The notes beneath the pieces are model-generated. The model searched no databases and was not told the DNA's origin. It saw nothing but the letters and a program-made list of their open reading frames with translations. A program made the translations under genes and the position numbers. From an uncultured Erysipelotrichaceae bacterium (GTDB lineage Bacteria; Bacillota_I; Bacilli_A; RF39; UBA660): DNA of 43,571 nucleotides. Of the stretch, positions 39,440 through 43,571 are shown piece after piece. How positions within the stretch are numbered: position 1 is the first letter of the stretch; each line of letters opens with the position of its first letter. The stretch covers positions 1 to 43,571 of the forward strand of contig CACYFN010000021.1 in NCBI GenBank assembly GCA_902773675.1, read 5' to 3'.

Positions 39440-39467
39440 AAAAAAAAATCTAGTAAAAACTAGATTT
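39440..39467 (-). terminator. Intrinsic terminator after the surface-protein gene at 39466
   Basis: On the minus strand AAATCTAGT-TTTT-ACTAGATTT is followed by a T run, overlapping the stop codon. Confidence 0.8.
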
Positions 39468-40935
39468 AATTTGATAAAACATAAGGATCATTAACTTTAC
39501 CAGTTCCAGATATTAATTTTACATTTTCTTTTAAATAAAAGGTTGGTTTAATTGCTGCAGACCAGGAGCAATTGGCATTTTTTACATCACCTATATGGAA
39601 TTGTAAACAAGTGTTCCATGCATTATTATAATAGTTTAAAACCCACGTATCATTATATAAATATATCCAGCTCTTTAAAGGTTCACAATTTGGATCAGTT
39701 GCATTTGCGCAAAAACAATTTAATTCATAACAAGTATTACTTACATTATTAGAATATGTAAAATATTGATCACTTGGATAAATAATTGCAATTTTACCAA
39801 TCCAATATGCATCTCTACCACTAAATGTTGTTGTACTTCTTTCATCATTATATAAAACTTCTGTTGAAGATACAGATGCATCAACAACTCCCAAATAATA
39901 TTTTGTAGTTCCAATCATATTTTGAGCTGTTTCTGATAAACTATTATAATAATCTCCATTAAGGTATGTTTTCAAAGAAGATGTATTCCAATCATTAGCA
40001 TATGCTGAATTCCAGGCCATATTTAAACTTAAATTATCTCTTACTATTTTCATTCTTTGAACTATTTCTCCATTTTCATTTTCTACATTAAAAATTCCAA
40101 TAATTCTCCATTTTTCACATGTAGATAGTTCTTCATCATCCGTACAATTATAATATACATAATTATAAGGATCATTACCTATATATCGATAATCTGTAAG
40201 TGCTTCTGTTTGAGCTGTAGATGAATGACTAAATGTAAACATTTCATGGATATTTCCATCTGTATAATTATTAATAGTATCATTGTTCATTACAGTAAGT
40301 AAAGTATCAGTTGCAGGTTTAGGTTTTTCGGATGCTATTTCAAATGATGTATTCCAAGCACTTGCATATTTGTTATATTGAACAGTTTCTATGGTTATAG
40401 TTAAAGTATATGTTGCATTATCATAATCATTACCACTTGAGTTACAAGTAATTGTTCTTGTCCCATTATTAACTGTTTCTGTACATGTATCATCTAATTC
40501 GATATCAGGATTAAATGTTACTGATTCTAAGAACGATGATGTAACTTCACCTGGAGCTAGTTTATATTTATAATAATAGTATCCATTATCATATTTCCAA
40601 TCTTTTTTATTTGCTAAATTAAGAACAGCTACAGTAACACCATTTTTAGATAAATCTAATGAATCTCCATTATGTGATAGCCATTCTTGTGATATAGATA
40701 TTCTAACTGCTTCGTCTACTTCACCAGTGTTTTCAACTATTATTGTTTTTTCAGTTGTATCTCCTGGTAGCCAGTTATCAGGCGATACAAAACTTTCAGT
40801 ATATTCTGTTCCATATTCTTTTGTCGTAAATATATTTTCTACATCAGTACTATTTGCAAAATATGCAATAGTTATGCCAACTATACATATTATAGCTATT
40901 AAAAATAATATTATTATTGTTTTTTTATTTTTCAT
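39466..40935 (-). CDS. Surface protein with SipW-type/TasA-like N terminus and C-terminal cell-surface domain
   Basis: The N-terminal signal region (residues 1-30) has the GITIAYFANSTDVENIF pattern of SipW-dependent camelysin/TasA-like proteins, followed by a TasA-like beta domain (VENTGEVDEAVRIS, about 55-190). The C-terminal half (about 220-489) has EKWRIIGIF and ends IKPTFYLKENVKLISGTGKVNDPYVL. This ending closely resembles that of the partial protein at 43298-43571 (VRPVVYLKSNIKIADGTGEV), so the two share a domain often found in multiple copies in gut Bacilli. Ligand unknown. There are many Cys residues in the C-terminal half (e.g. CYELNCFC). Confidence 0.8.
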   Translation of the reverse strand: MKNKKTIIILFLIAIICIVGITIAYFANSTDVENIFTTKEYGTEYTESFVSPDNWLPGDTTEKTIIVENTGEVDEAVRISISQEWLSHNGDSLDLSKNGVTVAVLNLANKKDWKYDNGYYYYKYKLAPGEVTSSFLESVTFNPDIELDDTCTETVNNGTRTITCNSSGNDYDNATYTLTITIETVQYNKYASAWNTSFEIASEKPKPATDTLLTVMNNDTINNYTDGNIHEMFTFSHSSTAQTEALTDYRYIGNDPYNYVYYNCTDDEELSTCEKWRIIGIFNVENENGEIVQRMKIVRDNLSLNMAWNSAYANDWNTSSLKTYLNGDYYNSLSETAQNMIGTTKYYLGVVDASVSSTEVLYNDERSTTTFSGRDAYWIGKIAIIYPSDQYFTYSNNVSNTCYELNCFCANATDPNCEPLKSWIYLYNDTWVLNYYNNAWNTCLQFHIGDVKNANCSWSAAIKPTFYLKENVKLISGTGKVNDPYVLSN

Positions 40936-43039: not shown

Positions 43040-43297
43040 TTTATTTTAAACTACAAAGTAGTTACTTTCAACTTAGCAGGTTCTCTATAATTAATCTATC
43101 TATAAATTTAGAAGGGATTAATCGTGATTACTGGAATAATTTTTTTTAGAGAACCCATCTATCAATCAAACTACAAAAATATAGTTAATTGAAATAATTA
43201 ATCATGTATTAATACATGTGATTGTATGCGTGCGAAGAATTAATCTTCGACTTACAAATATTTTTAATTTATTATTATTGTAAATTAGGAGTTATAT

Positions 43298-43571
43298 TTA
43301 TTCTAAAATATATTCATTTCCTACCTCTCCCGTTCCGTCAGCGATTTTGATATTAGATTTTAGATACACGACGGGGCGGACACCAATGCTGCCATACGAG
43401 TAGTAGCTGCCCAAGTAGCCGTCGCTACTCGCGTAAAGCACAAGATACGAGTCACCAGCATAGGAAGACAATAACCATGTATAAGATGGGCTAGACTGTC
43501 CTTCTAAAACATTACTTTTATATACCCAGCCTGTTTGAGCATTTGTTCCATCACATCCATTTGGATTATCA
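43298..43571 (-). CDS. Partial C-terminal end of a surface protein with GC-rich, possibly diversified segment
   Basis: The gene runs off the right edge of the window. I translated the last 90 residues: they start DNPNGCDGTNAQTGWVYK, contain TWLLSSYAGD, and end with GVRPVVYLKSNIKIADGTGE then EYILE and TAA. The ending is the same domain type as in the gene at 39466. The segment 43367-43453 has an unusual codon choice: 22 of 29 codons end in C or G, against mostly A/T-ending codons in the rest of the window. The segment 43381-43440 is about 55 percent G+C by hand count. See the finding on a possible diversity-generating retroelement target. Confidence 0.8.
   Translation of the reverse strand, partial: DNPNGCDGTNAQTGWVYKSNVLEGQSSPSYTWLLSSYAGDSYLVLYASSDGYLGSYYSYGSIGVRPVVYLKSNIKIADGTGEVGNEYILE
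43367..43453 (-). other. Candidate DGR-type variable region in the partial surface-protein gene
   Basis: Eighty-seven bases encoding DSYLVLYASSDGYLGSYYSY and then GSIGVRPVV are rich in TAC, AGC, GAC and GGC codons. These are the products expected from adenine-directed change of AAC codons. They lie immediately before a GC-rich GTCCGCCCCGTC end. No template repeat or reverse transcriptase is visible in this window, so the call is tentative. Confidence 0.4.

Follow-up and report, generated by a model that had tools for sequence, protein, structure and literature searches.

A G+C-rich segment in the truncated gene at the right edge of the window, by which we mean the whole 43,571-bp contig (C21) analysed here, is almost certainly the variable repeat (VR) belonging to a diversity-generating retroelement (DGR) that is chromosomal and serves multiple targets in trans. 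A DGR target had been proposed at this place by a sequence-only reading, and the rest of the genome (1.46 Mb in 94 contigs, 92% completeness) bears the proposal out: it contains a template repeat (TR) whose only differences from the segment are at adenines, a reverse transcriptase (RT) accompanied by the accessory proteins Avd and MSL, eight VR-bearing paralogues, and a target protein whose predicted fold matches phage DUF6273 proteins. Coordinates of the features within the window are collected in Table 1.

Table 1. Features of the DGR target region in the window, with the repeat alignment and the related gene at 39466.
Feature	Position	Strand	Details
DGR target gene, 3' end	43298..43570	minus	90 codons plus stop; frame DNPNGCDGTNAQ...GVRPVVYLKSNIKIADGTGEVGNEYILE*
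Variable repeat (VR), 103 bp	43374..43476	minus	ungapped match to TR1 (C10:26961-27063)
3' boundary of VR, place of IMH / IMH*	43360..43384	minus	from the alignment: GGTGTCCGCCC common to VR and TR1, then divergence
Inverted repeat GTCGAAGATTAATTCTTCGCAC	43230..43251	minus	first stable hairpin past the VR, ~120 nt away
Spacer copy	43041..43223	minus	93.7% identical to the C65 VR-TR2 spacer; 93.5% to the post-VR region of C31
Full-length paralogue without TR-like VR	39466..40935	minus	489 aa, SipW/BsaA-type

The edge gene is truncated by the contig end and retains its 3' part down to the stop codon at 43298, which shows 78% identity to residues 441-532 of a complete 533-aa paralogue on contig C31. 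The compositional claims that had drawn attention to this gene hold: of the 29 minus-strand codons in 43367-43453, read in the frame of the ORF 43298-43570, exactly the stated 22 have G or C as their last base, 43381-43440 reaches 55% G+C on a contig of 24.5% G+C, and a GVRPV motif follows directly after the G+C-rich segment. The codon shift is far beyond chance, as the 8,310 windows of 29 codons taken from 20 other ORFs of the window (GC3 0.11) contain at most 11 G/C-ending codons, and the 60-mers richest in G+C across the whole window all lie at this patch. Within the edge gene, GC3 is 0.62 in the segment versus 0.13 in the remainder. The related surface protein at 39466 had been described as free of such a shift, which is nearly right, although a faint trace persists (GC3 0.28 versus 0.09 elsewhere in the gene); this paralogue is either non-diversified or a target frozen long ago. 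A slight rise of GC3 (0.25-0.28) in the VR-equivalent segment is in fact seen both here and in a second gene (L032:1501-3114), and the two look like old, ameliorating VRs.

Searching the genome with the G+C-rich segment gave matches on eight further contigs. The template TR1 lies outside any target gene, is abundant in AAC and AAT codons, and aligns with the window VR without gaps: 17 of the 32 template adenines are replaced, while 0 of the other 71 bases differ (hypergeometric P 5e-11). Nine of the replacements are to T, seven to G and one to C, and all 14 Asn codons of TR1 are rewritten in the VR. As in other DGRs, the VR occupies the 3' end of its target gene and ends at an IMH that is unlike the IMH* of the TR; past the common GTCCGCCC, the aligned VR reads CCGTCGTG and the TR reads ACTCGATA. 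Three other VRs of the TR1 type, also ungapped, carry 21/0, 19/2 and 18/1 adenine/non-adenine changes. A second template, TR2 (C65:1291-1393), can be aligned with the VRs on C65, C5 and C63 once in-frame indels (3, 21 and 3 nt) are allowed for; the changes number 16/4, 18/1 and 20/10, counts that are softer because gap placement favours adenines. Together with one weaker case (C62), the four TR1-type and three TR2-type genes make up the eight VR-bearing paralogues, and a search of the genome with the template core pattern returned two templates only, plus the window VR. GC3 is 0.56-0.64 in the VR-bearing genes (seven computed, C10 left out) versus 0.02-0.28 in the other members of the family.

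Two near-identical copies were also compared with each other. In the 95 bp that precede the VR, the window gene and the C10 target have 0/95 differences; within the VR, they differ at 21 of the 32 TR-adenine positions and at 1 of the 71 others, that is, variation between near-identical paralogues concentrates at the TR-adenine positions. Repeats interrupt the assembly of this fragmented MAG. Contigs C31 and C34 each end in a 5' target fragment (residues 1-423), the target pieces of C21 and C10 each start at residue 441, and a stretch common to two genes evidently caused the break in the assembly, so that the 5' end of the edge gene is probably one of the C31/C34 end fragments.

The RT that the sequence-only reading expected elsewhere in the genome, alongside the adenine-specific template described above, is also there: DGR-type RTs adjoin the templates, and Avd is present with them. 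Beside TR2, the C65 cassette comprises an MSL-type ORF of 123 aa, an Avd of 113 aa and an intact RT of 364 aa, which lies ~0.9 kb from TR2 and carries YMDD as well as LPIGNMTSQF, the latter containing the (I/L)GxxxSQ signature of DGR RTs. Its best PDB match is 8ub7, a 328-aa 'Reverse transcriptase' that we take to be the RT of the BPP-1 DGR. Of the accessory proteins that mark DGRs (Avd, HRDC or MSL), the genome has Avd and MSL. Avd is matched by Pfam bAvd PF22296 (46.7 bits, cut-off 40, E 5e-12) and by the PHROG 'Avd protein of DGR', and scores 50.8 against the NCBIfam Avd model, below its cut-off of 80; MSL is matched by Pfam MutS_I (23.6 bits, cut-off 20.6) and has a MutS fold. The same three genes stand beside TR1 in the C10 cassette, and the C10 cis target is ended early by a deletion, after GVRPVVYL. 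In the C10 RT (L015, C10:24998-26090), a 2-bp deletion and clustered substitutions fall exactly at IGNMT-SQF, with MSL and Avd intact. With the frame of this RT broken in the assembled sequence, the TR1 targets, including that of the window, may rely on the C65 RT in trans, may have relied on a recently failed C10 RT, or may now be idle. The remaining RTs (C56, C27, C59) were rejected as DGR RTs, being group II intron and retron-like enzymes; the one on C59 (L025:4080-5306) is a retron-like reverse transcriptase unrelated to the DGR.

The MSL model matches the mismatch-binding domain of MutS at ~1.1 A over 58-68 residues, and the Phe of its FY motif is invariant in 20 of 20 aligned sequences. 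We take this residue to be the mismatch-wedge Phe of MutS, whose Glu two residues on is absent. Retention of the wedge Phe with loss of the Glu in MSL (L016:1630-2001) and its relatives hints that these proteins may bind mismatches or heteroduplexes but not signal for repair in the normal way. MSL (PF01624) is already named as a DGR accessory (PMC10053308), and we dropped the notion that a MutS-like accessory might be new.

Complete targets join a SipW-type (TasA/BsaA-like) N-terminus to a C-terminal DUF6273-like domain. The TIGR04090 N-terminal region (SipW/BsaA-type) scores 105 and 115 bits (cut-off 60) in the C31 target and the 39466 paralogue, respectively, and the window target, whose own 5' part lies off the contig, presumably shares this N-terminus with its paralogues. 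SipW-type signal peptidases are encoded in the genome, one of them adjoining a family member on C51. AlphaFold modelled the last 309 residues of the C31 protein with a pLDDT of 94.9 and placed the VR in terminal beta strands (residues ~248-282). This model matches phage DUF6273 proteins and part of the T. ramosa IgA peptidase; direct PDB matches to C-type lectins are present, weak and not significant. DUF6273 is a known target domain of gut-phage DGRs and is reported to resemble C-type lectins (PMC10743442).

Downstream of the VRs, a G+C-rich hairpin is found ~70-108 nt past the GVRP codons in C31, C9, C10 and C65 but is absent after the window VR, where the weaker inverted repeat at 43230-43251 stands. 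The BPP-1 DGR requires a hairpin directly behind its VR, and in related phage DGRs the distance is 4-34 bp (PMC3240598), versus about 70-130 nt from the VR end to the first hairpin in the present genome. Neither a TR nor an RT follows the spacer copy at 43041..43223, which makes the window gene a satellite target, and the identity of the spacer suggests that this target was copied together with part of a cassette. The conserved non-coding block to which the copy belongs (L016:1011-1182; 43041-43223), with inverted repeats GGTTCTCTA...TAGAGAACC, is seen again behind several VRs, and part of it appears again after the RT (C65:3694-3824, C10:24563-24688).

In the mechanism that we propose, RNA from TR1 on C10 would be reverse-transcribed by the DGR RT with Avd (and MSL), random bases would be inserted opposite template adenines, and the cDNA would be exchanged for the homologous VR, which lies upstream of an IMH-like boundary, GTCCGCCCC, so that varied residues arise from the 14 template Asn codons. 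This would yield a SipW-dependent secreted or matrix-type surface protein, whose DUF6273-like (C-type-lectin-like) C-terminal domain presents a variable ligand-binding face. From the sequences, we infer that the window VR was rewritten by retrohoming and served in trans, the enzyme being either the intact C65 RT or, prior to its frame break, that of C10; surface display and ligand binding of the target are likewise suggested. A bolder extension, which we regard as rather doubtful, is that at least eight SipW-type matrix or surface proteins in one small Bacilli genome share two templates and perhaps one working RT in trans, with MSL (wedge Phe kept, neighbouring MutS Glu absent) holding or shielding the mismatched cDNA/target heteroduplex from mismatch repair.

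The alternative with most weight bears solely on present activity and does not conflict with the DGR-target reading: the window VR may have been diversified earlier and now be frozen, its TR1 cassette dead and its recognition hairpin lost. The loss of frame at the SQ motif in the C10 RT, the truncated C10 cis target, the missing G+C-rich hairpin behind the window VR and the existence of partly ameliorated paralogues (GC3 0.25-0.28) all favour it. Yet the zero non-adenine differences between the window VR and TR1 imply that, on the time scale of point mutation, the last rewriting took place recently, C65 carries an intact RT, Avd and MSL, and the C10 frame break may itself be a consensus error of the MAG; on this balance we consider a frozen target a serious possibility while leaning against it.

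Explanations outside a DGR fare far worse. Diversifying selection of the ordinary kind, or gene conversion between silent copies of surface-protein genes in the style of pilin or vlp cassettes, could draw on the many paralogues, some of them fragments at contig ends, but it is very improbable given that the changes strike template adenines and spare neighbouring bases, and that RT and Avd adjoin the templates. Still less credible, to the point of being negligible, is an origin of the segment by recent transfer from a G+C-rich donor, which the local 55% G+C in a 24.5% genome might suggest: eight paralogues carry a G+C-rich segment at the same place in otherwise AT-rich genes, and a template with adenine-specific differences in the same genome refutes this origin. 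No such donor is needed, because the template's own AAC, GAC, GGC, TCG and GCG codons supply the G+C richness. A prophage origin of the DGR was also rejected, as RT matches in viral contigs are only 21-33% identical and the cassette neighbours are housekeeping-like, presumably mraZ, rsmH and rsmE among others, as named by eye from sequence.

The window system is thus a known sort of DGR, notable for its many dispersed targets and two templates. Multi-target DGRs have been described, with up to eight targets mentioned (PMC10743442), as have DGRs with two templates (PMC6642488). It resembles the BPP-1 DGR (Mtd, Brt, Avd) in its A-to-N differences between TR and VR, its RT and Avd, and a C-terminal VR ending in a G+C-rich IMH-like stretch, whereas BPP-1 is phage-borne and the present system is chromosomal, with several targets in trans. 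Another close counterpart is the DGR of Treponema denticola (TvpA and remote targets), which is likewise bacterial and chromosomal and rewrites surface proteins from a template; there, one core cassette goes with as many as seven targets, mostly remote, some remnant targets lack a core cassette as in the present genome, and two TR types exist in the species, compared with two within one genome here (PMC4891356). T. denticola has an HRDC accessory and lipoprotein targets, in contrast to Avd plus MSL and SipW-type targets. The diversified domain is shared with the tentaclins and target2 proteins of gut phages, which are also DUF6273 / C-type-lectin-like (PMC10743442), but here it is fused to a SipW/BsaA-type secreted bacterial protein outside any evident prophage. 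From DGRs with an MSL accessory, a small MutS domain I-like protein beside Avd and RT (PMC10053308), nothing fundamental separates it. In gut Bacilli with small genomes, the system connects matrix-type (SipW/TasA-like) surface proteins with targeted hypermutation. Additionally, surveys that demand RT and VR side by side underestimate remote targets (PMC8144416), and a codon-composition anomaly alone can expose a DGR target on a contig without template or RT.

Relatives of the RT occur in more than 30 genomes, mostly Bacilli/Tenericutes MAGs at ~40-63% identity, and most keep the gene order MSL-Avd-RT. RT relatives are present in ~20 related Bacilli MAGs, and a blind scan found adenine-specific TR/VR pairs next to many of the relatives. 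In rumen/gut MAGs, MSL is fused to the RT C-terminus in one 498-aa ORF (L083:4760-6253, L084:4525-6018, L085:4674-6167), and blastp detected no separate Avd in the MAGs with the fusion. A cut ORF (L086:7929-8936) is probably also an RT-MSL fusion, bringing the total to three or four MAGs.
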